Shown one piece after another: positions 1-15,655 of a stretch of DNA of 46,024 nt. Where the stretch lies: assembly GCA_030426085.1 (NCBI GenBank), contig JAUHYW010000080.1:1-46024 (forward strand). The letters are read 5' to 3'. How positions within the stretch are numbered: the stretch's first letter is position 1; every line of letters begins with the position of its first letter. This DNA comes from a bacterium. Lineage in GTDB: Bacteria > Myxococcota_A > Bradymonadia > UBA7976 > UBA1532. The position numbers were made by a program, and so were the translations under genes. The notes under the pieces were generated by a model. The model did no database searches. It had not been told where the DNA came from and was given only the letters and a program-made list of their open reading frames with translations.

Positions 1-1
1 G

Positions 2-70
2 ACCTCATTGGCCCGAGCAAACGGCGCCCGGCGGGCCGGTCGCACCTCATTTTCTGGAGCAAACGGCGCC
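2..70. repeat. Two direct-repeat copies, 42-bp period, at left edge
   Basis: ACCTCATT occurs at 2-9 and 44-51, and GAGCAAACGGCGCC at 15-28 and 57-70, both at an offset of exactly 42 bp, with a diverged spacer between. The first copy sits at the window edge, so this may be the tail of a longer array or a pair of direct-repeat binding sites upstream of the mys operon. No gene is supported in 1-361; its other contents are the inverted repeat at 211-243 and the promoter candidate at 267-295. Confidence 0.6.
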
Positions 71-210
71 AGAGGGGGTCTTCGGACCGGGATCTGCGCG
101 TGTGCCACTGCGCCGAGGGCCGCTCTCGTGGCCCGGACGACCCCGCCCGCCGGCCGCCTGTGGCCCGATCAGCGCCCCCGCCGACCGCCAGACGTCGAGG
201 CGCCCTCCCC

Positions 211-243
211 CGGGTGACAGCCCGGGGGCAGCTCTGTCACCCG
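211..243. promoter_or_regulatory. 10-bp-arm perfect inverted repeat, candidate operator
   Basis: CGGGTGACAG (211-220) and CTGTCACCCG (234-243) are perfect reverse complements separated by 13 nt. The element lies 24 nt upstream of a candidate -35 box and about 120 nt upstream of mysA. No T-tract follows, so it does not look like an intrinsic terminator. An activator or repressor site for the MAA operon is the simplest reading; the regulator is unknown. A second short palindrome, GTGATCAC, follows at 245-252. Confidence 0.5.
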
Positions 244-266
244 TGTGATCACCTGTCGCGCCCTGG

Positions 267-295
267 TTGCCTGCGCGGCCCCCGCGCGCTACACC
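267..295 (+). promoter_or_regulatory. Candidate sigma70-like promoter of mys operon
   Basis: TTGCCT (267-272), a 17-bp spacer and TACACC (290-295) match the bacterial housekeeping geometry with partial hexamer identity. Transcription would begin near 302, leaving a leader of about 60 nt before the mysA ATG. It is the best match in the non-coding 1-361 stretch, but GC-rich genomes give many weak matches. Confidence 0.35.
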
Positions 296-361
296 TGCCC
301 CTTCGGCCGCCGCCCCCACGGGCGCGGCGCCTCTCCCTCACCCTCAAGGCGGATCTCGAGC

Positions 362-1621
362 ATGCATCAGGTGGACAGTCGCTATCGCACGTCGAAGTGG
401 TACGGAGGCTCGGGCGAGATCGTGCCCCACCCGGCCGACGGCGCGTTCTCGGTCCGGGCTCAGTTCACCATCGAGTCCGACGTGCGGGTCATGCACGGCG
501 TCTTCGAGCCGCACAACGCCTTCCTCGCCGACTACTACCGGGAGTACGGGCGGTGCGTGATGGTGGTCGATCAGACCGTCGACGAACTGTACGGCGAGGG
601 CATCCGGGGCTACTTCGACGCCCACGGCCTGCCCCACCGCAGCCTCGTCGTGCGGGCGTGGGAGGTCGACAAGCACCAGCCGCTCGTCGACCGCATCATG
701 CACTTCTTCGCCGAGCAGCGGGTCTCACGTCACGAGCCGGTGCTGATCGTCGGCGGGGGCGTGCTCGCCGATGTCGGCGGGCTCGCGGCGGCGCTGTCCC
801 ACCGGCGCACGCCCTACGTGATGATCGGCACGACCATCATCTCGGCGATCGACGCCGGCCCCTCGCCCCGCACCTGCGTCAACGGGCACCGCTTCAAGAA
901 TCGCCTCGGCGCGTTCCACATGCCGGTGCTCACCATCGCCGACCACAGCTTCTTCCGCACGCTGCACCCGGCCCACCTGCGCCACGGCATGGCCGAGATC
1001 CTCAAGATGGCGTTCATCGACGACCACGCGCTGTACACCCTGCTCGCGGCGCACGGCGAGCGCCTCGTCGAGACCCGCTTCGGCACGCTGGTCGACGACC
1101 CGGCGCTCACCGCGGTGGCCGACACCGTGCTGTATCGCGCGCTGCGCTCGTACCTCGGCCACGAGGGCACCAACCCGTGGGAGGTGCACCAGGCCCGGCC
1201 CCACGCCTTCGGCCACACCTGGAGCCCGGGCTACGAGCTGCCGGCGGGCCTGCTGCACGGGCACGCGGTCAGCTCGGGCATGGCGCTCGGGGCGACGATG
1301 GCCGCCGAGATGGGCTGGATCGACGGCGGCGAGCGGGACGCGATCATCGAGCTGTGCAGCCGGCTGGGGCTGGCGGTGCATCACCCCGTGCTCGGCGACT
1401 TCGACCTGATGCTCGACGCGCAGGCGATGATGATCGAGAAGCGGGGCGGCACGCTGTGGGCCCCGCTGCCCAAGGGCGCCATCGGGGCCTGCGACTACGC
1501 CGAGCGGGTCGAGCCGTCGCTGCTGAAGGCGACCCTGGCGACCCAGAAGCGGCTGACGGCCGGGCTGCCCCGCGAGGGGCTCGGGATCCAGATGCACCGG
1601 TCCGACCTGGGGATGGGGTGA
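362..1621 (+). CDS. mysA: Sugar-phosphate cyclase, desmethyl-4-deoxygadusol synthase (MysA)
   Basis: Predicted 419-residue 3-dehydroquinate-synthase-fold cyclase that would turn sedoheptulose 7-phosphate into desmethyl-4-deoxygadusol, the first committed MAA step, using NAD and a divalent metal in the cytoplasm. Family signs are the NAD loop GGGVLADVGG (131-140), the stretch KNRLGAFHMPVLTIADHSF, the HGMAEILK motif and HAFGHTWSP (281-289); the last is typical of the EEVS/DDGS branch rather than true AroB. By family alignment E212, H285 and H299 are the likely metal ligands. The length fits DDGS/EEVS (about 400-420). The ATG at 362 follows an AAGGCGG-type ribosome site at 346-352. The choice of DDGS over 2-epi-5-epi-valiolone synthase rests mainly on the mysB, mysD and mysC neighbours. 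mysB starts 4 nt after the stop. Confidence 0.9.
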   Translation: MHQVDSRYRTSKWYGGSGEIVPHPADGAFSVRAQFTIESDVRVMHGVFEPHNAFLADYYREYGRCVMVVDQTVDELYGEGIRGYFDAHGLPHRSLVVRAWEVDKHQPLVDRIMHFFAEQRVSRHEPVLIVGGGVLADVGGLAAALSHRRTPYVMIGTTIISAIDAGPSPRTCVNGHRFKNRLGAFHMPVLTIADHSFFRTLHPAHLRHGMAEILKMAFIDDHALYTLLAAHGERLVETRFGTLVDDPALTAVADTVLYRALRSYLGHEGTNPWEVHQARPHAFGHTWSPGYELPAGLLHGHAVSSGMALGATMAAEMGWIDGGERDAIIELCSRLGLAVHHPVLGDFDLMLDAQAMMIEKRGGTLWAPLPKGAIGACDYAERVEPSLLKATLATQKRLTAGLPREGLGIQMHRSDLGMG

Positions 1622-1625
1622 GCCG

Positions 1626-2453
1626 ATGAAGCCCACCGACGCGTCGCCGCTGCGGCCGGTGACCCCCCACGCGATCCTCGCCGCCCGCCTGACCGCGCTC
1701 GTCGCGCGGGTCGAGGCGGCCGGCGGCCTCGCGCCCGAGGCGCTCGCCGAGCTGCGGGCCGTCGAGCGCCTCGCCGCGGGGCTCGACCCCTACCTCGACG
1801 CCCACACCACGCCCCCGTCGCCGGCCCTCGCCGCGCTGGAGGCGGCCACGCTGACCCAGGACTGGCCCGCGCTGCACCGGGCCGGCGAGACCGCCGTCGA
1901 GCTGGAGTCGGAGATGCTCTGCGGCGCGGTGGAGGCCCGCTTCCTGGCCACGCTGGTCGGGCTCACCGGCGCGAAGCGGGTGCTCGAGGTGGGTATGTTC
2001 ACCGGCTACTCGGCGCTGGCCATGGCCGAGGCCATGCCGCCCGACGGCCGCCTGATCGCGCTCGAGCGGGAGCCGTGGCTGGCGGCCTTCGCCCGCCCGT
2101 TCTTCGACGCGGCCGGCTGCGGCGATCGGATCGAGGTCCGGGTGGGCCCGGCGCTCGATGAGATGCGGCGGCTGGCCGACGCCGGGGCGCAGTTCGACCT
2201 GATCTTCATCGACGCCCACAAGGCGGAGTACGTCGACTACTGCCGGCTGGCGCTCGCCGGCCTGCTGGCGCCCGGCGGCGTGATCGCGGTGGACAATACG
2301 CTGTTGCAGGGCGAGCCGTGGCGGGGCGACTCCACCGACCGGGGGGTGGCCATCGACCGCTTCAACCGGGCGGTGCGCGACGACCCCCGGGTGGCGCAGG
2401 TGCTCGTGCCCCTGCGGGACGGCATCACCCTCGTGCGCCGGGTCGCGCCGTGA
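1626..2453 (+). CDS. mysB: SAM-dependent O-methyltransferase, 4-deoxygadusol-forming (MysB)
   Basis: 275-residue class I, metal-dependent O-methyltransferase of the caffeoyl-CoA-OMT type. It is predicted to methylate desmethyl-4-deoxygadusol to 4-deoxygadusol. The SAM-binding motif I VLEVGMFTGYSAL is at 119-131; the metal and catalytic acidic residues sit in FIDAHK (D196) and VDNTLLQG (D223, N224). The N-terminal 90 residues are helical and Ala/Leu-rich, as in MysB homologues. The length agrees with MysB (about 280). It starts 4 nt after mysA, and its TGA overlaps the GTG start of mysD, so translational coupling is likely. Alone it would be called a generic OMT; the MAA role comes from context. 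Confidence 0.88.
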   Translation: MKPTDASPLRPVTPHAILAARLTALVARVEAAGGLAPEALAELRAVERLAAGLDPYLDAHTTPPSPALAALEAATLTQDWPALHRAGETAVELESEMLCGAVEARFLATLVGLTGAKRVLEVGMFTGYSALAMAEAMPPDGRLIALEREPWLAAFARPFFDAAGCGDRIEVRVGPALDEMRRLADAGAQFDLIFIDAHKAEYVDYCRLALAGLLAPGGVIAVDNTLLQGEPWRGDSTDRGVAIDRFNRAVRDDPRVAQVLVPLRDGITLVRRVAP

Positions 2454-3478
2454 AGCCGCGCCTGCTCCAGCTCGTGGGCTCGGCGGTCGACGACTTCTTC
2501 TGCGATCTGGCGCGCTTGTGGAGCGAGGGCTCGATCGCCGCCACCCGCGCGGCGGGCTACCCCGACCACATCGCCTACGTCACCCCCGGCGGGCGGTGGC
2601 GCTTCCCGACCTCGCTGGCCCCCGAGGCGCTCGCCGCCGCCGAGCCGATGCCGCTCGACCGGGCCATCGCCCACATCGGGTCGCTCGGGGTCGACCTGAT
2701 GGTGCCCCATATGTACTGCCTGCCGGGCATGACCACCTATCGGGCGCTCTTCGACCTGCTCGGCGTCCCGTACTTCGGCAGCCCGCCCGCGCTGATGGCG
2801 AACACCGCCCACAAGGCCCGGGCGCGGGCCATCGTCGCCGCGGCGGGGGTCGCGGTGCCCGAGGGCGAGGTGGTGCGCCGCGGCGAGCGGCCCGGCCTCG
2901 CGCCGCCGGTCGTCGTCAAGCCGGCGGCCGCCGACAACTCCCACGGGGTCGCGCTCGTCCGCGCTGCCGACGCGCTCGACGGGGCCCTGGCCGCCGCCTT
3001 CGAGCACGGGCCCGAGGTGCTCGTCGAGCGCTTCGTGCCCCCCGGCCGCGAGGTGCGCTGCGGGGTGGTCGAGCGCGGGGGGCGGCTGCTGTGCCTGCCG
3101 CTCGAAGAGTACCCCGTCGACGCCGACAGCCGCCCCATCCGGACCTACGCCGACAAGTTCGCCCGCGCCGCCGACGGCGCGCTGTACGCGGTGGCCAAGT
3201 CCGTCGACAAGGCGTGGCTCGTCGACCCCGACGACCCGCTGACCGCGCGGGTCTGGCAGGCGGCCCGGCGCTGCTATCGGGCGCTCGGCTGCCGGCAGTA
3301 CGGCCTCTTCGACTTCCGCGTCGATCCGGACGGGCGGCCGTGGTTCCTCGAGGCGGGGCTGTACTGCTCGTTCTCCTCCAAGGGCGTCATCTGGACGATG
3401 GCCCGGGGGGCCGGGCTGCCGCTCGACGACCTGATGGGCGGGCTCTTGCGGGGGGCGCTCGAAGGCGGGGCGCCATGA
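2450..3478 (+). CDS. mysD: D-Ala-D-Ala-ligase-like ATP-grasp enzyme, MAA second-amino-acid ligase (MysD)
   Basis: 342-residue ATP-grasp ligase predicted to add a second amino acid (Ser, Thr or similar) to mycosporine-glycine, giving a disubstituted imine-type MAA. Hallmarks are HMYCLPGMTTYRALFDLLGV, the ATP-grasp segment PVVVKPAAADNSHGVALV, PPGREVRCGVVERGG, CLPLEEYPVD and DFRVDPDGRPWFLEAGLYC. In the last motif E301 is a metal ligand, while Gly replaces the Asn of classical D-Ala ligases, a pattern I recall from MysD. The GTG start at 2450 overlaps the mysB stop (GTGA) and gives the expected MysD N-terminus (LLQLVGSAVDDFF). Its own TGA overlaps the mysC ATG. Which amino acid it uses cannot be read from sequence. 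Confidence 0.9.
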   Translation: MKPRLLQLVGSAVDDFFCDLARLWSEGSIAATRAAGYPDHIAYVTPGGRWRFPTSLAPEALAAAEPMPLDRAIAHIGSLGVDLMVPHMYCLPGMTTYRALFDLLGVPYFGSPPALMANTAHKARARAIVAAAGVAVPEGEVVRRGERPGLAPPVVVKPAAADNSHGVALVRAADALDGALAAAFEHGPEVLVERFVPPGREVRCGVVERGGRLLCLPLEEYPVDADSRPIRTYADKFARAADGALYAVAKSVDKAWLVDPDDPLTARVWQAARRCYRALGCRQYGLFDFRVDPDGRPWFLEAGLYCSFSSKGVIWTMARGAGLPLDDLMGGLLRGALEGGAP

Positions 3479-4878
3479 CGAGCTATCCGTTCGACACCTG
3501 GCCCCGCGCCGCGCTGCACCCGCCGGAGATGCCCCGGAGCCGCTGGGTGGGCGTCGGCCGCGCCGTCGGCGCGCTGGGGGCCCTGGCGGCGGCCGCGCCG
3601 CTCACCGCCGGCCTCACCGGGGCCGCGCTCGCCGGGGCCTTCGGCGAGGTCCGCCGCGAGGCGGCCGATGGCCCCACGGTGCTGATCAGCTCGAGCCACA
3701 TGACCAAGGGGCTCGTGCTCGCCCGGGCGCTGCGCGCGGTCGGCTGCCGGGTCATCGCGGCCGACATCGCGCCCTATCACCTCGGCGGCGTGCGCTTCTC
3801 GAGGGCGGTGAGCGCCTACCACCGGCTGCCCGACCCCCGGGGCGACCTCGACCGCTACGTCGCCGCGCTGCTCGATATCGTGGAGCGGGAGCAGGTCGCC
3901 GTCTTCGTGCCGGTCAACCAGCCGCCGTTCGCGCAGTACGACGCCGAGGCCCGGGCGGCCCTGATCGAGCGCGGGTGCCGGGTCTTCCACATCGATCCGG
4001 CGCTGTGCCGGGTGCTCGACGACAAGCACCGCTTCGCCGAGGCCGCCCGCCGGGCCGGCCTGAGCGTGCCCGACACCCGGCTGTTCGAGGCGCCGGCCGA
4101 CGTGCTGGCCTTCGACTTCCCGCCCGGCGCGCGCTACCTGCTCAAGCCGGTCGTCTACGATCCGGTCGATCGCCGGGCGGTGAGCCATACGCTGCCGATG
4201 GCCGATCGGGAGGCCTTCCGGGCCTTCGTCGGCGGGCTGACGATCAGCCCCGAGCGCCCGTGGGTCCTCCAGCGGTTCGTCGAGGGGCGGGAGTACTGCG
4301 CCCACGTCACGATCGCCAAGGGCCGCCCGAGCGCCTTCGTCTGCACCGAGTCCTCGCCGCATCAGCTCAACTACGCCCCGGTGCGCCACCCGAAGATCTT
4401 CGCCTGGGTGATGGCCTTCGTCGCCACGCTCGAGGTCGAGGATGCCCTGATCTGCTTCGACTTCATCGAGGACGCCGACGGCGAGGTGTACGCCATCGAG
4501 TGCAACCCCCGGCCCCACTCGGCGATCACCGCGTTCCACCGCGACCTCGAGGCCCTCGGCCGGGCCACCCTCGACGGCGTGCCCCAGGGCGCCCCGCCGC
4601 TGGAGCCGGCCCCCGACGTCGAGCCGACCTACTGGCTGGCCTGCGAGCTCGAGCGGCTGGCCCGCGTGCGCTCCCCGGCCCAGGCCCGCCGGTGGCTGGC
4701 GCACCTCGCCCGCGGGCGGGACGCGGTCTTCGCCTGGGACGACCCGCTGCCGTTCTTCGCGCTGCACCACCTGCTCGTGCCGTCGCTGCTGCTGCGTCAG
4801 GCCCTGGGCGACGGCCGGTGGACCCACATCGACTGGTGCATCGGCAAGGTCGCCGCGCCCGACCCCCACGACCCCTGA
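3475..4878 (+). CDS. mysC: ATP-grasp 4-deoxygadusol:glycine ligase (MysC)
   Basis: 467-residue ATP-grasp enzyme predicted to condense 4-deoxygadusol with glycine to form mycosporine-glycine. An N-terminal Ala/Leu-rich hydrophobic segment (about 24-57) precedes the catalytic region; similar segments occur in cyanobacterial MysC and may anchor it at the membrane. Family motifs are VLISSSHMTKGLVLARAL, the block FSRAVSAYHRLPDP, the lid/ATP region YLLKPVVYDPVDRRAV, SPERPWVLQRFVEGREYC and AIECNPRPHSAIT, with metal ligands E342 and N344. The ATG overlaps the mysD stop as ATGA. It lies after mysD, so the order A-B-D-C differs from the common cyanobacterial A-B-C-D. Confidence 0.92.
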   Translation: MTSYPFDTWPRAALHPPEMPRSRWVGVGRAVGALGALAAAAPLTAGLTGAALAGAFGEVRREAADGPTVLISSSHMTKGLVLARALRAVGCRVIAADIAPYHLGGVRFSRAVSAYHRLPDPRGDLDRYVAALLDIVEREQVAVFVPVNQPPFAQYDAEARAALIERGCRVFHIDPALCRVLDDKHRFAEAARRAGLSVPDTRLFEAPADVLAFDFPPGARYLLKPVVYDPVDRRAVSHTLPMADREAFRAFVGGLTISPERPWVLQRFVEGREYCAHVTIAKGRPSAFVCTESSPHQLNYAPVRHPKIFAWVMAFVATLEVEDALICFDFIEDADGEVYAIECNPRPHSAITAFHRDLEALGRATLDGVPQGAPPLEPAPDVEPTYWLACELERLARVRSPAQARRWLAHLARGRDAVFAWDDPLPFFALHHLLVPSLLLRQALGDGRWTHIDWCIGKVAAPDPHDP

Positions 4879-4891
4879 CGCCCCCGACGCC

Positions 4892-6520
4892 ATGACCGCT
4901 CCGCCGCCAGCACCGACATCCGGTGAGTCGATGGCGCTCCTGCGGGCGCTGGGGCCGACGCTCGCGCTGTGCGCGCTCGCCGAGTGGTTCATCATCGACG
5001 CGATCGTGAGCGCGCTGTCGGTGGAGCTCGTCGACGGGGCGCCCGGCCGCTCGCTGCGGCACTTCACCGCCGGCCTGCTGCTGTCGCACTTCGCGTTCGG
5101 GCGGCTGCTCGAGCGCACCGCCGGGCTGCTCGCGGCCCGGACCGGGGAGCGGGTCACCGACACCCTGCGGCGCATGGCGGGGCTCGATCTGGCGACCTTC
5201 GAGCGGCTGGAGGCCAGCGCGCTGATCCCCCGGCTGACGACCGATGTGGAAGAGGTCCGCAGCTTCGCGACCGGGCTCGCCCGCATGCTGCGGGCCGCCG
5301 CCGCGCTGACCATCGGGCTGGGCTACTGCCACGCCCTCTCGCCGACCGCGGCGCTCATCGCGGCGCTGGTGCTGGGCGTGGTCGCCGTCATCATCCTCGT
5401 GGGGCACTTCGAGCGGGACGCCCACCTCGGCCGGCTCGCCGCCGCCCGGGACGGGGTGCAGCGGCTCGTCGAGGACGCCATCGCCGGCTTCGTTCAGCTC
5501 CGCCAGCACCGCCCGCGGCGGCGGGCCATCCTGGGCGAGGTGCGCCGGCGCAGCGCGCAGCTCGACGCCGAGCGGGATCGGGTCAGCGTGGCGTTCGTCG
5601 AGACCCACGCCCAGGAGCGCTACCTGCTGTACTTCGGGCTCGCGATCTGCGCGTGGTTCCTCATCCAGCTCGAGGGGCGCAGCCCGACCGCGGCGGCCCC
5701 GATCACGCTGCTGGTGATGTACGTCGGCCTGACCCAGCTCGAGGCGACCCGGCTGCTGCCCCAGGCGATGGACGCCCAGCACGCGTGGCGCCGGCTGTGC
5801 GCGGCGCTCGACGGCCTGGGGCCCGCCGCCCGGGCCCCGGCCCCGCCGCCGGGGCGGCCCGACGCGCTGCCCGAGCGGCCGTCCCGGGTCGAGCTGCGCG
5901 GCGTCTGCTACCGCCGCCCCTCGACCGCCCACCGGGCCGGGTTCGAGCTGGGCCCCATCGACCTGATCCTGCGCGCGGGCGAGGTGGTCTTCGTCACCGG
6001 CGAGAACGGCAGCGGCAAGTCGACCTTCCTCAAGGTGCTCACCGGCCTGTATCGGGCCGACGCCGGCGCGCTGCTCGTCGACGGGCGGGCGGTCGGGCCC
6101 GAGGACATGTCGGCGTGGCGGTCCCGCTTCGCCTCGATCTTCAGCGACTTCGCGCTCTTCGACCGGCTGTACGGGGTCGAGGCGGTCGACCCCGAGCGGG
6201 TGCGGCGCCTGCTCGACGAGCTGCAGCTCGGGCACAAGACCGCCTGGGTCGACGGGCGCTTCACCGAGCTGGAGCTGTCGACCGGGCAGCGCAAGCGGCT
6301 GGCCATGGTCGCCGCGCTGCTGCGCGACCGGCCGATCCACGTCTTCGACGAGTGGAGCGCCGAGCAGGACCCCGAGTACCGGGCGTGGTTCTACGATACG
6401 CTGCTGCCCCGGCTGGCGGCGCGGGGCGCGATCGTGCTGGCGGTGACCCACGACGAGGACTTCTTCGACCGGGCCGACCGGGTGCTGCACTTCGACGCCG
6501 GGCAGATGGTGCAGCGGTGA
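4892..6520 (+). CDS. ABC half-transporter (membrane + ATPase), cyclic-peptide/siderophore exporter type, first of pair
   Basis: 542-residue fused permease-ATPase. The N-terminal ~320 residues hold about five or six hydrophobic segments (e.g. 16-40, 127-172, 245-265). The ATPase domain has Walker A GENGSGKST (370-378), the signature LSTGQRKRL (462-470), Walker B HVFDEWSAEQDP and the switch His in VTHDEDFF. The DEWxAxQDP block and FYDTLLPRL stretch are typical of the SyrD/PvdE-like cyclic peptide exporter family, which moves small peptide-like products out of the cytoplasm. It starts 13 nt after mysC and its stop overlaps the start of the second half-transporter, so the two probably form a heterodimer. 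Transport of an MAA is inferred from operon position; import or an unrelated cargo cannot be excluded. Confidence 0.85.
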   Translation: MTAPPPAPTSGESMALLRALGPTLALCALAEWFIIDAIVSALSVELVDGAPGRSLRHFTAGLLLSHFAFGRLLERTAGLLAARTGERVTDTLRRMAGLDLATFERLEASALIPRLTTDVEEVRSFATGLARMLRAAAALTIGLGYCHALSPTAALIAALVLGVVAVIILVGHFERDAHLGRLAAARDGVQRLVEDAIAGFVQLRQHRPRRRAILGEVRRRSAQLDAERDRVSVAFVETHAQERYLLYFGLAICAWFLIQLEGRSPTAAAPITLLVMYVGLTQLEATRLLPQAMDAQHAWRRLCAALDGLGPAARAPAPPPGRPDALPERPSRVELRGVCYRRPSTAHRAGFELGPIDLILRAGEVVFVTGENGSGKSTFLKVLTGLYRADAGALLVDGRAVGPEDMSAWRSRFASIFSDFALFDRLYGVEAVDPERVRRLLDELQLGHKTAWVDGRFTELELSTGQRKRLAMVAALLRDRPIHVFDEWSAEQDPEYRAWFYDTLLPRLAARGAIVLAVTHDEDFFDRADRVLHFDAGQMVQR

Positions 6521-8115
6521 AGCTGCTGTCGTTCGTCGACCCCGCGGCCCGCGCCCGCCTGGGCCGCGCGCTGCGCCTGGTGGCGCTGGGGCAGACCGTG
6601 GGGCTCGTGATCTTCCCGCTGGTCAACGCCTGGGTGCTCGGGCGGGTGCCGAGCGACGCGGTCTGGGGCTGGGGCGTCGCCTGCGTGCTGGTCCTGGCGC
6701 TCAGCTACGCGCTGCGGGTGCGCAGCGCCGTCGCGCTCATCACCGGGCTCAACCGGGCCCTGGCCCGGGAGCGGGTGCGCCTCTTCGAACGGGTGTGCGC
6801 CAGCCGGCTGGCGGCGGTGGAGCGCGACCCGGGGCTGCCAGCCGCGTTCGCCCGGGACATGGTGCGCATGCTCTCGGTGGTCGACCTGATCGGGCCGGTG
6901 ATCTACTGCGTCGCGATCGTGCTCGCCAGCCTGCTCTACGTGGGGCTGCTCGACGGGCGGCTGCTGCCGGCGTGGGTGCTCGTCCTGGCGCTGGCGGCGG
7001 GGTGGACCCGGCCCCGGCTGCGGCGGCTGTGGCGGGCCACCGGTGAGCACCGCGACGCCCGGGCCCCGCTGACCCGGGGGGTGCGCCAGTTCATGGCCGG
7101 CTTCAAGACCCTGCGGGCCGACGACCGGGCGATGGGCGCGTTCCTCGCCGACCTCGACGACCGGCGGGCGGCGGTCGAGCGCAGCGCCGGGGCCATGGCG
7201 CGGGCCGAGCGGGGCGCGATCAACGGCAGCAGCACGCTGCTGCTCGCCGGCATCGGCCTGCTGCTCTTCGTGCTGCCCCACGAGATCGACGTGAGCCCGG
7301 CGACGATCCACGAGCTGATCGTGGTGGTGGTCCTGACCTGGGGGCCGGGGCTGTTCCTCATCGAGGTCGTGCCCCGGCTGATGGCCGCCGAGGAGGCGGC
7401 GCAGAACCTGCGGGCGACCGACGACCGGCTGGGCGGCGAGGACCCCGACGAGGCCCCCGCGCCGGCGGCCTTCGACGGCCTCGAGCTGGACCGGGTGGCC
7501 TTCGAGTACCCGACCGCCGACGGCGGGCCCGGCTTCGCGGTCGGGCCGTTCGACGTCGAGCTGCGGGCCGGGCAGCGGCTGATGCTCACCGGGGGCAACG
7601 GCAGCGGCAAGACGACGCTGATGAAGGTGGTGACCGGGCTCTATCGGCCGACCCGGGGCGTGATCCGGCTCGACGGGCGGGCGGTCGGCCCGCGGGACGT
7701 GGAGGGCTATCGGTCGCTCTTCACCGTGGTGCTGGTGCACCAGCACCTCTTCGACCGGCTGTATGGCATCGAGGCCGATCCGGCGCGGGTGCGGGCGCTG
7801 CTCGACCGGTTCGCGCTGACCGGGGTGGTGGACCACCGGGACGGGCGCTTCACCACGCTGGCGCTCTCGGCGGGGCAGCGCATGCGGCTGGCCCTGGTCG
7901 TCGCGCTGCTCGAGGACCGCCCGATCCTGGTGCTCGACGAGTGGGCCGCGCACCAGTCGCCCGGTCAGCGGCGCGTGTTCTACGAAGAGCTGCTGCCCGA
8001 GCTGACGGCCGCCGGGCGCACGGTGGTGCTCGTCAGCCACGACGCCCGGTTCTTCCACCTCTCCGACCGGCGCATGCACCTCGCCGGGGGCCGGGCGGTG
8101 GCGCTGCCGCCGTGA
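6517..8115 (+). CDS. ABC half-transporter (membrane + ATPase), second of pair
   Basis: 532-residue partner of the preceding gene, with the same layout. Hydrophobic segments lie near 15-40, 47-65, 125-170, 245-265 and 270-295. Walker A GGNGSGKTT starts at residue 359, followed by the signature LSAGQRMRL, Walker B ILVLDEWAAHQSP and VSHDARFF. Both ATPase sites look intact. The GTG start at 6517 overlaps the TGA of the first half-transporter (GTGA). The two proteins differ enough to suggest an obligate heterodimer rather than a recent duplication. This is the last gene of the operon; a convergent Cys-rich gene begins 3 nt beyond its stop, leaving no room for a terminator. Confidence 0.85.
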   Translation: MKLLSFVDPAARARLGRALRLVALGQTVGLVIFPLVNAWVLGRVPSDAVWGWGVACVLVLALSYALRVRSAVALITGLNRALARERVRLFERVCASRLAAVERDPGLPAAFARDMVRMLSVVDLIGPVIYCVAIVLASLLYVGLLDGRLLPAWVLVLALAAGWTRPRLRRLWRATGEHRDARAPLTRGVRQFMAGFKTLRADDRAMGAFLADLDDRRAAVERSAGAMARAERGAINGSSTLLLAGIGLLLFVLPHEIDVSPATIHELIVVVVLTWGPGLFLIEVVPRLMAAEEAAQNLRATDDRLGGEDPDEAPAPAAFDGLELDRVAFEYPTADGGPGFAVGPFDVELRAGQRLMLTGGNGSGKTTLMKVVTGLYRPTRGVIRLDGRAVGPRDVEGYRSLFTVVLVHQHLFDRLYGIEADPARVRALLDRFALTGVVDHRDGRFTTLALSAGQRMRLALVVALLEDRPILVLDEWAAHQSPGQRRVFYEELLPELTAAGRTVVLVSHDARFFHLSDRRMHLAGGRAVALPP

Positions 8116-8118
8116 GGC

Positions 8119-8757
8119 TCAGCGGCGGGTGGGCGCGCAGATCGGCTCGCCCCGGGGCGCCACGCAGACGGTGCCCGCCCGGCAGCGCACCGCGGCGCAG
8201 GGGTCGGCGTCGTCCGGCACGCAGATGGGGGCCCCGTCGACCGCTTCGCAGTGGGTCCCGGCCATGCAGCGCGCGGTGGCGCAGGGGTCGGCGGCCGCCG
8301 AGCGGGTGAGCTGGGGGGCGCAGGTGGGGCCGTCGGCGGTCGCCACGCAGGCGGTGCCGGCCTCACAGCGCACGGTGGCGCAGGGGTCGTCGGCGTGGCG
8401 GGGCACGCAGACGCCGTGGCCTCCGATGTCGACGCAGACCGCCTCGGGCACGCAGAGGGTCACCGCGCAGGCCGGGCCGCCGACGACCGGGCGCGGGGCG
8501 CAGACGCCCATGGCATCGGGCATGTCATCCCGCACGACGCAGATCTGATCCCCGGGGCACTGGATCCCGGCGATCCCGCCGCAGGCTTCGGGCAGGTCGA
8601 CGCAGACCCCCATCGCGTCGGGGTGCCGGTCGCGGGTGACGCAGATCGACCCCTCGTCGCAGGGGACGCCGGCGACGCCGCCGCACTCGGCGGCGAAGGC
8701 GGGGGCGGTGAAGGCGACGAGGGCGATGAGGGCGGACGGCAGGCGCAGGGCGTTCAT
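8119..8757 (-). CDS. Secreted Cys-rich repeat protein
   Basis: 212-residue protein with a clear Sec signal peptide (hydrophobic 5-20, cleavage after AFA). Two N-terminal repeats of the form CGGxAGxxCxxxxxICVxRDxxPDAMGVC are followed by repeats of the form DPCATxRCxAGTxCxAxxxGPxCxP. These resemble small disulfide-knotted EGF/Kazal-like modules common in myxobacterial surface proteins; no enzyme motif is seen. A GGAGAG ribosome site lies at 8763-8768 (minus strand). It converges on the MAA operon with 3 nt between stops, so any link to MAA export would be speculation. Confidence 0.8.
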   Translation of the reverse strand: MNALRLPSALIALVAFTAPAFAAECGGVAGVPCDEGSICVTRDRHPDAMGVCVDLPEACGGIAGIQCPGDQICVVRDDMPDAMGVCAPRPVVGGPACAVTLCVPEAVCVDIGGHGVCVPRHADDPCATVRCEAGTACVATADGPTCAPQLTRSAAADPCATARCMAGTHCEAVDGAPICVPDDADPCAAVRCRAGTVCVAPRGEPICAPTRR

Positions 8758-8854
8758 GGCATCTCTCCGATGGCTCGCGTGAAAGGGTCTTGGCTGTCGC
8801 TGTCTGTTCGGTGGGCGGGCGGTGGCTCCGTCCGCTCTGCCCCGTACAACCGGC

Positions 8855-8889
8855 GACCCGCCCGCAGGTTGCGCGGGCGGGTCGTTTTT
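8855..8889 (+). terminator. Intrinsic terminator or leader attenuator
   Basis: GACCCGCCCGC (8855-8865) pairs perfectly with GCGGGCGGGTC (8873-8883) across a 7-nt loop, followed by G and five T (8885-8889). The T-tract makes it a plus-strand terminator. The nearest plus-strand gene upstream ends 740 nt earlier, so it either stops MAA-operon read-through that has run antisense over the Cys-rich gene, or acts in the leader of the downstream esterase gene. Confidence 0.75.
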
Positions 8890-8942
8890 CTCGGCGGCCG
8901 CTGCTAGCGTCGGCCGTCGTCGCCCCCCGTGGAGGTCGTCCG

Positions 8943-9953
8943 ATGTCGTTCTCGGCCAAGGTCACCATCATCTACCCGCTCGCCGCCGGCGAGATGACGC
9001 TGCGCACCGAGGACGACTGGAGCCGGGGCATCCCGCCGACCCACCGGGAGGGCAACCGCTTCGAGTTCGAGCTGGAGACCCCGACCGAGGTGCTGGCGTT
9101 CAAGCCGGTCGTCGACCACGGCACCCACCTCGACTGGTCCGAGGGCAACAACTACCTGCTCTACGCCCTCGCCGGGCATCACAAGATCATCTACCCGTTC
9201 TTCACCGGCTCGCCGGACCACGGCCGCATCACCCGGATCCACACCGTCGAGGCCATGGGCCGCGCGTGGCGCATGCGGTTCTACCTGCCGCCGGGCTACG
9301 GGGAGAACCCGCTCAAGCGCTACCCGGTGCTGTACATGCACGACGGCACCAACCTGTTCTTCCCCCACGAGGCGTTCATGGGGCAGCAGTGGCAGGTGGG
9401 CAAGACCATGGATCTGCTCAACGGGCTGAGCGTCATCGAGCGCATCGTCGTCGTCGGGCTGCATGCCATCGATCGCATGCACGATTACACCGCGCCGGGC
9501 TATCACGACTACGGGCGGGCCGTCGTCGAGCACATCAAGCCCTACGTCGACGCGCAGGTCAGCACCCTGGCCGATCCGTCGGCCAACGCGGTGATGGGCT
9601 CGTCCCTCGGCGGGGTGGTCTCGATGCACCTCGCCTGGCAGTACCCCGAGGTCTTCGGCGCGGCGGCCTGCCTGTCGAGCACCTTCGGCTACCAAGACGA
9701 TCTGTTCGAGCGGGTGGCGAGCGAGGCGAAGAAGCCCATCCGGCTGTATCTGGACAGCGGCTGGCCCCGGGACAACTTCGAGCGCACCCGGCACATGCGC
9801 GACATCCTGCTGCTGCACGGCTTCGACTACGGGCACGACCTGCTGCACTTCACCTTCCCCCACGCCCGGCACAACGAGCTGCACTGGGCCGACCGGATCC
9901 ACGTGCCGTTCCAGTTCCTGTTCGGCAAGCGGGCCGGCGGCCGGCCGTCGTAG
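8943..9953 (+). CDS. Esterase-D-like alpha/beta hydrolase
   Basis: 336-residue putative serine esterase (Esterase/Fes-IroE superfamily). An N-terminal beta-rich region of about 90 residues precedes the catalytic domain, which starts around RMRFYLPPGYGENP and contains YPVLYMHDGTNLFF, the nucleophile elbow GSSLGG and a C-terminal HARHNELHW holding the likely catalytic His. No signal peptide is seen. GGAGG at 8931-8935 precedes the ATG. An extended -10 (TGCTAGCGT, 8902-8910) just after the terminator is a possible promoter. Substrate unknown; siderophore-ester or carbohydrate-ester hydrolysis are family possibilities. Confidence 0.8.
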   Translation: MSFSAKVTIIYPLAAGEMTLRTEDDWSRGIPPTHREGNRFEFELETPTEVLAFKPVVDHGTHLDWSEGNNYLLYALAGHHKIIYPFFTGSPDHGRITRIHTVEAMGRAWRMRFYLPPGYGENPLKRYPVLYMHDGTNLFFPHEAFMGQQWQVGKTMDLLNGLSVIERIVVVGLHAIDRMHDYTAPGYHDYGRAVVEHIKPYVDAQVSTLADPSANAVMGSSLGGVVSMHLAWQYPEVFGAAACLSSTFGYQDDLFERVASEAKKPIRLYLDSGWPRDNFERTRHMRDILLLHGFDYGHDLLHFTFPHARHNELHWADRIHVPFQFLFGKRAGGRPS

Positions 9954-11618: not shown

Positions 11619-11647
11619 CGCCCGACGATCCGGGGAGGATGTTTCTG

Positions 11648-14600
11648 ATGACGACTCTGCGCCAGTGGGCGTTCCTGGCGAAGTTCGGCGTGCTCTGCGG
11701 CGCGCTCTGCGGCGGCCCGCTCGTCGGTTGCGTTCAGCAGGACGGGGGGGGCGACGACGACCCCGACATGCGGGTGCTCGACGTGGCGCTGGCCGCCTGC
11801 GAGGACGGGCGGGACAACGACGGCGACGGCGACATCGACCTCGATGACCCCGGCTGCGACTCGCTGGCCGACGACGACGAGGGCGACGAGGTCCGGGCGG
11901 CCTGCGACAACGGGGTCGACGACGACGGCGACGGCGACATCGACGGCGACGATCGGGGCTGCGCCGACGCGGATGACGACGACGAGAGCGACGACCCGCC
12001 GACCCAGTGCGCCAACGGGGTCGACGACGACGACGACGGCGCGATCGACGGCGACGACCGAGGCTGCGCCGACCCCCAGGACGACGACGAGAGCGACGAC
12101 CCGCGCCTGCCGGCGTGCCAGAACGGCGAGGACGACGACGACGACGGCTTCGTGGACTTCCCGGCCGATCCCGGCTGCGGGTCGCCCGAAGACGACGACG
12201 AGGCCAACGGCGGGGGGCCCATCCTGCCCCAGTGCGGCAACGGGCTGGACGACGACGGCGACGGCGACGTCGATCTGGCCGACTCGGGGTGCAGCAGCGT
12301 GGCCGACCCCCGGGAGGCGCTGGCCCCCGACGCGCCGCGGCCGGGCTGCAAGAACAGCGTGGACGACGACCTCGACGGCGTCACCGACTTCCCCCTCGAC
12401 CCGGGCTGCTCGGCGGCCGGCGACGAGGAGGAGGACGATCCGGCGATCGCCCCGGGCTGCGGCAACGGGGCCGACGACGACGGCGACGGGTTGACCGACT
12501 ACCCCCGCGATCCGGGCTGCCAGGGGGTGGGCGACCGGGACGAGACCGACCCCGCGGTGACCCCGGCCTGCGCCGACGGGGCCGACAACGACGGCGACGG
12601 GTCGGTGGACTACCCCGACGACCGGGGCTGCGAGAGCGCGTCCGACAGCTCGGAGGGCGGCGCCTGCGGCCGGATCTACGCCGCGGTCGAGGTGCGGCCG
12701 GGGCGGGTGGTGCGGGGCGACTCCCGGGGCGGGGCCTTCGAGTCGGAGGGCTCGTGCGGCGGCCGGGGCGCGCCGGAGATCGTCTTCGTGCACCGGGTCG
12801 AGCGGCCGATCGAGGCCCTCGTGATCCGCACCGATCTGGAGGAGAACTCGCTGGAGTCGGCGATCTACGTGCGTCGGGGCTGCCTCGACGAAGACTCCGA
12901 GGTGGCCTGCAACCGGGAGCCGCTGCGGGACGACGTCGCCGCCAATCAGGTGGTGGTGCCCGAGCCGTCGCCGGGCGAGTACTACATCTTCCTCGACGGG
13001 GCGTCCGGCCGGGGCGGCGAGTTCGCGATGATCGTCGAGGAGGTGCCGCTCGCCGCCTGCCTCAACGGCGAGGACGACGACGGCGACGGGCTTTCGGACT
13101 ACCCCGACGACCCGGGCTGCGTGGTGCCCGCCGACCGGGACGAGGCCGACCCCGAGGTGGCCCCGGCCTGCTTCGACGGCGAGGACAACGACGGCGACGG
13201 GCTGGTCGACTATCCGCTGGACTTCGGCTGTCAGGCCGCCGCCGACGAGGACGAGGTCGACGTCTGCGGGCAGGGGCTGCGCATCCTGGAGTATCCGGTG
13301 GTGGCCGACTTCGTGCTCGGCGACACCAGCGACGGCAGCACGCAGTTCACCGGGAGCTGCCAGAGCGACGGGCCGGAGAAGATCTACGTCTACGAGAACC
13401 CGGTCAACGCGGCCCTGACCTTCACCGTGGACTTCCCCGAGACGATCGTCCGCACGTCGCTGTACGTGCGCCGGCAGTGCACCAGCGGGGCCAGCGAGCT
13501 GGGCTGCGGGGTCGACGGCGAGAACGAGCTCGAGCCCAAGGGCACCGTCGAGCTGGAGCGGGCGGCCCCCGGCACCTACTTCATCTTCGTCGACACCCAG
13601 TTCGGCCTCGGCGGGCCGTTCAAGCTCGCCGTCGACGCCCGCCGGCTGGACCCGGGCTGCTCGGACGGCATCGACAACGACGAGGACGGCTTCATCGACG
13701 CCGACGACGTGGGGTGCAGCGAGCCGGAGGACGAGGACGAGCGCGACCCGCCGCTCGCCGCCCGCCCGGCGTGCTTCGACCGGGCCGACAACGACGACGA
13801 CGGCCTGATCGACTACCCGTTCGATCCCGGCTGCTTCGGTAAGGGCGACGCCGACGAGGCCGACCCCGACGCGCCCCCGGAGTGCGCCAACGGGGCGGAC
13901 GACGACGAGGACGGGCTGGTCGACTTCCCCGCCGACCCCGGCTGCGCGGCCCGGGGCGACGATCAGGAGCAGGGCGACCGGCGCAATCCGCAGTGCACCA
14001 ACCGCATCGACGACGACATGGACGGCGCGACCGACTACCCCATCGACCCCGGCTGCGCGGCGCCGGGTGATCTGAGCGAGGCCGACGACGCCGAGCCGCC
14101 GGCGTGCAGCGACGACGTGGACAACGACCGCGACGGGCTGATCGACTTCCCGTTCGACCCGGGCTGCCGCGCGGCGGGGCATGTGAGCGAGGCCGACCCC
14201 GACGAGCCCGTCGCGTGCAGCAACGGCGAGGACGACGACGGCGACGGGGTGGTCGACTTCCCGTTCGATCCCGGCTGCCCGTCGGCGGGCGGGGAGGACG
14301 AGACCGACCCCAACTTCCCGCCGACGTGCGCCAACGGCATGGACGACGACCGCGACGGGCTGATCGACTTCCCCGACGACCGGGGCTGCCGGTTCCGGGG
14401 CGACACCAACGAGACCGACCCCTTCGACCCCCCGTCCCGCTGCGAGAACAGCATCGACGACGACGGCGACGGGGCCATCGACCTGCGCGATCCGGGCTGC
14501 ACCAACCGGGATGACGACGACGAGCTGGATCCGGCCGATCCGCCGGAGTGCGCCAACGGCATCGACGACGACCAGGACGGCCTGATCGACTGGCCGGCGG

Positions 14601-15655
14601 ACTTCGGCTGTCAGGCCCGGGGCGACTCGCCCGAGGCCCAGACCTGCCGCGAGGGCGTCGAGGTGCTCGACATCGCGCCGGGCGAGGTGGTGGTCGGCGA
14701 GACGCTCGCCGATGACGGCGACGACTACCGCGGGCGCTGCGGCGGGCGCGAGGCGCCGGATCACGTCTTCCGCTATGTGCTCGACGCGCCGGCCGATCTG
14801 CGCATCAGCGCCGACAACCCGGGCACCGACTACCCGGCGGTCATCCACGTATCCCGCGACTGCGAGGAGCCCCGGGCGATGGTGGCCTGCGCCGGCGACT
14901 TCCAGCGGCCCGATCCGACGGTGGTGATCCAGGATGCCGAGCCGGGTGAGTATTTCATCACCATCGACGGCGGCGGGCCCGAGCGCTGGGTCAGCGACGG
15001 CGGCGACATCCCGATGCCGGTCGACCCCAACGGCTTCCAGGCGAACGACGACATCGACAACGACGACTGGAACGACGGCGGCAACGACGCGTTCGACGGC
15101 TACGGGCGCACCATGCTGACCGTGGGTGGGGTTCAGCAGCAGGCCGTCGTGGGCCTCGGCGTGCGCAACATCAACGTGGGCGGCATGGGCATCACGGTGA
15201 CCAGCGAGCTGGTGAACAACGTCTGGCGGCTGCGCTACGACCCGGCGATCGCCAACGACGAGACCCCGGTGAGCTTCAACATCACCGGTAACATGGGCAG
15301 CGACGGCAGCACCCAGGGCCAGCAGCCGCGGGTGGAGTTCGCCGGGCGGCAGCTCACCTACCTGTTCACCACCGACGGCGTCCCCCGCGATCCGCCGGTG
15401 GTGCACCTCTTCGTGCCGTCCGACCCGGAGCAGCTCGGCGCGGTGACCTACGCGAACCAGGGCGACAACGTGACCATCACCGTGCGCGAGATCACCTTGC
15501 CGGCGACGTTCTACGTGGCGCTGTCGTACGCCGCCAACGGCAACCCGGGGGTCGTGGCCAACGCGCTGGTGGGCGACTTGCAGATCCAGGCCGGCGGCGG
15601 GGGGGCCGAGGCGCCCCGCTTCGGCAACTACGAGCTGACGGTCGAGGCGCAGTAG
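11648..15655 (+). CDS. Giant Asp-rich lipoprotein with 19 Cys-framed calcium-loop-like repeats and three beta domains
   Basis: 1335 residues. A lipoprotein signal ends in the lipobox LVGC (Cys28), so the mature protein is membrane-anchored. It holds 19 repeats of the form CxNGxDDDxDGxxDxPxDPGC, arranged 8 + 2 + 9, separated by acidic linkers such as DEADP. The DxDxDGxxD core resembles dockerin, thrombospondin-3 and MopE-type metal-binding loops, so calcium or another cation is the likely ligand, and the two Cys per repeat probably form a disulfide. Three beta-rich domains (about 338-470, 539-668, 1000-1118) end in GEYYIFLDG-like motifs as in PPC (bacterial pre-peptidase C-terminal) domains; a beta-rich tail follows. 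No catalytic motif was found. The ATG at 11648 is preferred over 11639 for its ribosome-site spacing. Its 3' end overlaps the convergent kamA by 28 nt. Confidence 0.88.
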   Translation: MTTLRQWAFLAKFGVLCGALCGGPLVGCVQQDGGGDDDPDMRVLDVALAACEDGRDNDGDGDIDLDDPGCDSLADDDEGDEVRAACDNGVDDDGDGDIDGDDRGCADADDDDESDDPPTQCANGVDDDDDGAIDGDDRGCADPQDDDESDDPRLPACQNGEDDDDDGFVDFPADPGCGSPEDDDEANGGGPILPQCGNGLDDDGDGDVDLADSGCSSVADPREALAPDAPRPGCKNSVDDDLDGVTDFPLDPGCSAAGDEEEDDPAIAPGCGNGADDDGDGLTDYPRDPGCQGVGDRDETDPAVTPACADGADNDGDGSVDYPDDRGCESASDSSEGGACGRIYAAVEVRPGRVVRGDSRGGAFESEGSCGGRGAPEIVFVHRVERPIEALVIRTDLEENSLESAIYVRRGCLDEDSEVACNREPLRDDVAANQVVVPEPSPGEYYIFLDGASGRGGEFAMIVEEVPLAACLNGEDDDGDGLSDYPDDPGCVVPADRDEADPEVAPACFDGEDNDGDGLVDYPLDFGCQAAADEDEVDVCGQGLRILEYPVVADFVLGDTSDGSTQFTGSCQSDGPEKIYVYENPVNAALTFTVDFPETIVRTSLYVRRQCTSGASELGCGVDGENELEPKGTVELERAAPGTYFIFVDTQFGLGGPFKLAVDARRLDPGCSDGIDNDEDGFIDADDVGCSEPEDEDERDPPLAARPACFDRADNDDDGLIDYPFDPGCFGKGDADEADPDAPPECANGADDDEDGLVDFPADPGCAARGDDQEQGDRRNPQCTNRIDDDMDGATDYPIDPGCAAPGDLSEADDAEPPACSDDVDNDRDGLIDFPFDPGCRAAGHVSEADPDEPVACSNGEDDDGDGVVDFPFDPGCPSAGGEDETDPNFPPTCANGMDDDRDGLIDFPDDRGCRFRGDTNETDPFDPPSRCENSIDDDGDGAIDLRDPGCTNRDDDDELDPADPPECANGIDDDQDGLIDWPADFGCQARGDSPEAQTCREGVEVLDIAPGEVVVGETLADDGDDYRGRCGGREAPDHVFRYVLDAPADLRISADNPGTDYPAVIHVSRDCEEPRAMVACAGDFQRPDPTVVIQDAEPGEYFITIDGGGPERWVSDGGDIPMPVDPNGFQANDDIDNDDWNDGGNDAFDGYGRTMLTVGGVQQQAVVGLGVRNINVGGMGITVTSELVNNVWRLRYDPAIANDETPVSFNITGNMGSDGSTQGQQPRVEFAGRQLTYLFTTDGVPRDPPVVHLFVPSDPEQLGAVTYANQGDNVTITVREITLPATFYVALSYAANGNPGVVANALVGDLQIQAGGGGAEAPRFGNYELTVEAQ
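11798..14611 (+). repeat. Coding repeats: 19 copies of a ~60-bp Cys-framed acidic module
   Basis: Nineteen 20-21-codon units, each bounded by two Cys codons, with tandem GAC codons in the core. Copies 1-8 lie at about 11798-12633, 9-10 at about 13059-13233, and 11-19 at about 13660-14611. Units diverge at the base level but keep Asp positions, so selection seems to act on the metal-loop pattern. Confidence 0.9.

Follow-up and report, generated by a model that had tools for sequence, protein, structure and literature searches.

A complete mycosporine-like amino acid gene set with divergent MysA and MysC and an adjoining ABC exporter pair in a Myxococcota genome

Organisation of the locus

The window (the whole 46,024-nucleotide stretch of DNA that we analysed) carries near its start six co-directional genes with intact reading frames, four of them for enzymes of the mycosporine-like amino acid (MAA) pathway families and two for ABC half-exporters. 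As the contig starts 361 bp before mysA, the operon lies at the contig edge. The features are as follows.

211..243, no strand: perfect 10-bp inverted repeat, CGGGTGACAG-N13-CTGTCACCCG, 118 bp before mysA; candidate operator
362..1621, + strand: mysA, 419 aa; sugar-phosphate cyclase on the DDGS side, divergent (K170R, Thr347 to Lys)
1626..2453, + strand: mysB, 275 aa; class I O-methyltransferase, an ordinary MysB
2450..3478, + strand: mysD, 342 aa; D-Ala-D-Ala-ligase-like ATP-grasp, an ordinary MysD with omega-loop pattern A-A
3475..4878, + strand: mysC, 467 aa; glycine-type ATP-grasp ligase, sister to the reference MysC as a whole
4892..6520, + strand: ABC half-exporter 1, 542 aa; cyclic-peptide-exporter-like, with a 65% identical paralogue at G000:C81
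6517..8115, + strand: ABC half-exporter 2, 532 aa; probable partner of half-exporter 1

A gap of 4 nt separates mysA from mysB, the mysB/mysD, mysD/mysC and exporter gene pairs each overlap by 4 nt, and 13 nt lie between mysC and the first ABC gene. The initial annotation had called four consecutive genes, MysA, MysB, MysD and MysC, and had quoted the motifs HAFGHTWSP, WFLEAGLYC and AIECNPRPHSAIT; the genes are there and intact, all on the + strand, and all three motifs are present. It had also given the whole of 362-8115 as the MAA operon, which holds for the mys genes as far as 4878, while 4892-8115 consists of the two half-exporters that it did not name. Nor had it remarked on the order of the genes, A-B-D-C, which is unusual.

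Third-position GC is 0.97-0.98 in every operon gene and matches the rest of the window. The core of the inverted repeat, GGTGACAG-N8-20-CTGTCACC, occurs at one site in the 10.1-Mb genome (reversed control, 0), and the repeat at 211-243 may be an operator. An Rfam search of window positions 1-9000 gave no match, and sigma-70 promoter and terminator scans, which are uninformative for this organism, found nothing. Two 42-nt direct repeats that are 71% alike occupy positions 2-85 at the contig edge. Further downstream, positions 11639-15655 encode a predicted repeat-rich protein of 1338 aa, partial paralogues of which are numerous in related genomes.

MysA and MysC carry most of the divergence

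For comparison we used 13 MAA clusters, 12 actinobacterial (Actinosynnema pretiosum, L024; Pseudonocardia oroxyli, L025; and ten further genomes) and one cyanobacterial (Nostoc sp. HK-01), a set that leaves fungi, cnidarians and other phyla aside. All four genes have co-clustered homologues in these 13 independent clusters at 37-61% identity (tblastn did not detect mysB in locus L044), and the operon is therefore not a chance assembly. This bears out the earlier call of a complete mysABCD-type set. The order A-B-D-C is found in 0/13 reference clusters, all of which read A-B-C-D, the order that is typical of mysABCD clusters and is not essential to function.

The four proteins differ in how far they depart from the references. 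Mean identity of the window protein to the references is 38.7% for MysA and 42.3% for MysC, against 61-70% and 51-62%, respectively, among the references themselves; the corresponding values are 51.9% against 52-61% for MysB and 54.8% against 52-60% for MysD. Likewise, 56/143 invariant columns are changed in MysA (the 143 being positions invariant in 13 other DDGS, of which the others change 0-10) and 27/110 in MysC, compared with 5/69 in MysB and 7/91 in MysD; the leave-one-out maxima for any other sequence are 10, 8, 7 and 5 columns for MysA, MysC, MysB and MysD. Divergence of MysB and MysD is thus within or near the range of other family members. In the trees the reference clade leaves out MysA and MysC; MysB and MysD fall inside it or are unresolved at its base. 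The earlier reading of the operon as simply the known shinorine/porphyra-334 set is not supported as it was put, given the strong divergence of MysA and MysC.

On these comparisons, either MysA and MysC may have evolved at a higher rate or with altered constraint, or we may be looking at a mosaic operon. MysA might also come from an old, unsampled lineage, since its distance from EEVS is similar to that of the DDGS (39.4% identity to ValA, against 40.5% for the DDGS). The many substitutions at conserved MysA positions could alternatively be taken as signs of a decaying or inactive cluster in which MysA activity has been lost; this is highly unlikely in the face of six intact frames, third-position GC of 0.97-0.98, retained metal ligands, and MysB and MysD that are normally conserved.

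MysA is a DDGS-like cyclase

MysA carries the Pfam domains DHQ_synthase and DHQS_C. Its best solved structure is the Anabaena desmethyl-4-deoxygadusol synthase (DDGS) 5tpr (268 bits), followed by the EEVS ValA (4p53, 203 bits) and DHQS (∼100). AlphaFold models of MysA and MysC built from three-sequence alignments are too poor for active sites (mean pLDDT 57-58), and the MysA model still retrieves 5tpr first. In a tree of 23 cyclases MysA is sister to 14 DDGS with support of 100/99, on a long branch (2.01), and a tree constrained to join it to EEVS is worse by 28 log units and is rejected (AU p 0.00027). The initial annotation had proposed such a phylogeny, with a grouping of MysA with EEVS speaking against its reading; in both the tree and the AU test MysA lies on the DDGS side.

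Fingerprint residues that separate DDGS from EEVS were reportedly described by Kean et al. in 2014, a fingerprint cited in PMC4426668; the residues used here are named after that work and were checked empirically in the alignment. The combination Glu/Ala/Thr is present in 14/14 DDGS and Leu/Asp/His in 4/5 EEVS-like rows. MysA keeps Glu254 and Ala268, which are found in 14/14 DDGS and 0/5 EEVS-like rows, and has Lys in place of Thr347, so that Glu/Ala/Lys stand where EEVS have Leu267/Asp281/His360. The metal ligands Glu, His and His are kept. Additionally, Arg170 occupies the place of the Lys in the xxKxxVN motif, a Lys that every other aligned cyclase keeps (DDGS, EEVS, Ebo and DHQS), five cyclase relatives from the operon host's own bacterial family among them. 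In classical DHQS it is a substrate-binding residue, and its replacement by Arg is conservative. Because Arg170 replaces this invariant Lys, we file MysA as DDGS-like, a sister branch rather than a proven DDGS.

We reject MysA as an EEVS on the tree test and the fingerprint. MysA is roughly as similar to ValA (39% identity) as to DDGS (39%), which would fit an EEVS-type MysA in an operon whose product is gadusol-like or an aminocyclitol, but this account is highly unlikely: the tree, the AU test and the lack of EEVS Leu267 and Asp281 argue against it, as do an operon without oxidoreductase or aminotransferase and the presence of MysC and MysD.

The remaining enzymes and the predicted product

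In the trees MysB joins the MysB sequences rather than other Methyltransf_3 OMTs. MysC is placed with the MAA MysC and apart from other ATP-grasps (SH-aLRT 100), branching as sister to the whole reference MysC set, and MysD falls among MysD; the phylogeny that had been suggested for the two ligases thus places both with MAA ligases. At the positions that set Ser/Thr preference in cyanobacteria, the omega-loop residues of MysD are A-A. In yeast, X-A patterns other than F-A gave mainly shinorine, and we found no mention of A-A itself among the patterns reported (PMC11983340). By this rule, MysD is predicted to prefer Ser. The prediction of a shinorine-type product in turn rests on production of mycosporine-glycine by MysA-C, which we infer. 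The operon contains no dioxygenase, second methyltransferase or NRPS, and therefore implies no palythine or glycosylated product.

Together these data suggest, with a probability that we put at roughly 60%, that the operon makes and exports an MAA, leading from sedoheptulose 7-phosphate through mycosporine-glycine to a shinorine-type MAA that leaves via the ABC pair. MysA would cyclise sedoheptulose 7-phosphate to desmethyl-4-deoxygadusol, which MysB would O-methylate to 4-deoxygadusol. MysC would then activate 4-deoxygadusol with ATP and attach glycine to give mycosporine-glycine, and MysD would add a second amino acid, probably serine, yielding an imine of the shinorine type with absorption near 333 nm. 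The two ABC proteins would form a heterodimeric exporter carrying the product from the cytoplasm, presumably for UV protection. Counting against this pathway are Arg170, the Lys that replaces Thr347 of the DDGS fingerprint, the 56/143 changes in MysA, the atypical MysC, and an exporter of a type not found beside the other MAA clusters examined.

The same features could point to a changed MAA-like chemistry, in which MysA forms a modified ring or MysC uses a different amino acid in place of glycine, and a new MAA-type compound is exported. Divergence concentrated in MysA and MysC beside an ordinary MysB and MysD, the MysA active-site substitutions (K170R, Thr347 to Lys) and an exporter inside the operon are all in line with this, and cyanobacterial MysC2/MysC3, with altered specificity for Orn/Lys, show that MysC specificity can shift (PMC10510106). 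On the other hand, conserved MysB and MysD argue for little-changed substrates (desmethyl-4-deoxygadusol-like and mycosporine-glycine-like), Glu254 and Ala268 are kept in MysA, and deep divergence may just mean an unsampled lineage. We regard a changed chemistry as possible and not probable.

The ABC exporter pair

Each of the two ABC proteins carries an ATPase domain in which the Walker, signature and His motifs are intact. They score best against PRK10522 and cyclic-peptide exporters without reaching the curated cut-offs (TIGR01194, 245.9 and 228.4 bits against 286.2). An ABC exporter pair adjoins the MAA genes in 0/13 reference loci, where the sole ABC match is a weak ATPase-domain match ∼4 kb from mysA in L041. 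From its membership of the operon, we infer that the pair may export the MAA. No characterised MAA exporter gene was found in the open-access literature examined, and the pair is a testable candidate for one.

The operon host genome has three further ABC pairs of this type, of which the C81 pair is nearest (half 1, 65%). At the C81 locus (L066, 10446-15553) a sulfotransferase-like gene, the ABC pair and an Asp/Glu racemase lie together, and from its gene content the locus reads as a possible second small-molecule export cassette. At C106 (L070, 8906-18394) the ABC pair stands beside a tandem array of five cupin/JmjC-like proteins and an ORF of 121 aa that has no Pfam match, and this looks like a putative peptide-modification locus.

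Distribution and genomic setting

The initial annotation took the genome to be Myxococcota-like. This fits circumstantially, and the class is probably Bradymonadia, not that of the classical myxobacteria. MysD (E 1e-35) is present in 1/284 Myxococcota genomes sampled, the operon host alone, and in none of 318 genomes of a second class. MysC matches (E 1e-20) occur in 2/57 genomes of the host class, the host itself and G073 (34% identity); the tree places the G073 protein outside the MAA clade, leaving no other MAA-type MysC in this class of 57. In Actinomycetes MysC is found in 11/395 genomes (E 1e-40), so such searches do find MAA clusters. Weaker MysC-like matches in other Myxococcota (≤34% identity) were considered as MAA ligases and rejected, the two best lying outside the MAA clade, and no other mys genes were found in the 10-12 kb around these two. 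A MysC scan of genome contigs returned only two actinobacterial loci; few patterns were scanned and nearer relatives may exist. Among plasmids searched the full set is found only in Nostoc sp. HK-01, and viral contigs searched for the mys set yielded none.

Over 8.9-28 kb the downstream flank shares long blocks with the congener G209 that are 76-91% identical in DNA, and the contig is therefore native to the genus. The next conserved gene, an esterase, is 87% identical in DNA to that of G209, where other genes precede the orthologue and mys genes are absent. Contamination or mis-binning of a contig from a non-Myxococcota genome, which the position of the operon 361 bp from the contig end might suggest, is rejected on this synteny, the esterase included, and base composition is uniform. 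Within the genomes sampled the operon is lineage-specific, and it is compositionally like its surroundings. Horizontal gain, as had been proposed, is plausible on the strength of the single host among 284 genomes and a congener without the operon, with loss elsewhere as a possible alternative.

Mycosporine-like UV sunscreens in bacteria are known mainly from cyanobacteria and actinobacteria, and no earlier report of a complete MAA gene set in Myxococcota was found in the open-access literature. With this operon, Myxococcota joins the phyla of bacteria that have such a set. Because Myxococcota carries such a set with a divergent MysA and its own pump, MAA chemistry may be wider and chemically more varied. 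For tracing how DDGS and MysC arose, the window proteins offer an outgroup, and MysA is a natural active-site variant for probing DDGS versus EEVS chemistry. More tentatively, the operon might be the first sampled member of a deep, separate MAA branch, whose cyclase (with Arg and Lys replacing a conserved Lys and Thr of the active-site region) and first ligase would yield a conjugate or ring not made by known MAA clusters, with a dedicated ABC pump; this we consider unlikely. If true, the exported compound might, for example, shield the cell surface or affect neighbours.

Comparison with known systems

The EEVS ValA has the family and metal ligands in common with MysA at ∼39% identity, but its Leu/Asp/His fingerprint is lacking in MysA, whose placement with EEVS is excluded by the tree test. 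Cyclic-peptide-type ABC exporters (TIGR01194, PRK10522) have the same domain layout and Walker and signature motifs as the pair described here, which is linked to MAA genes and not to peptide genes.

In actinobacterial MAA clusters the four genes are clustered as here and MysD is up to 61% identical, but the order is A-B-C-D with no ABC exporter, in contrast to A-B-D-C with an ABC pair in the window. A HAD hydrolase of ∼220 aa is repeatedly found upstream of mysA in these clusters (L025, L041-L045 and L047-L050), several with a TauD-like dioxygenase near; neither is seen in the window, which has no more than 361 bp of sequence before mysA. Nostoc sp. HK-01 (plasmid AP018319) has the same four enzyme families, clustered and co-directional with A and B adjacent, at 40/50/44/57% identity for A/B/C/D. 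Its order is A-B-C-D, and an MFS transporter lies nearby, as does a MysH-like PhyH dioxygenase, whereas the window operon is ordered A-B-D-C and has the ABC pair and no dioxygenase. Window MysA and MysC both lie outside the reference clade that includes Nostoc sp. HK-01.
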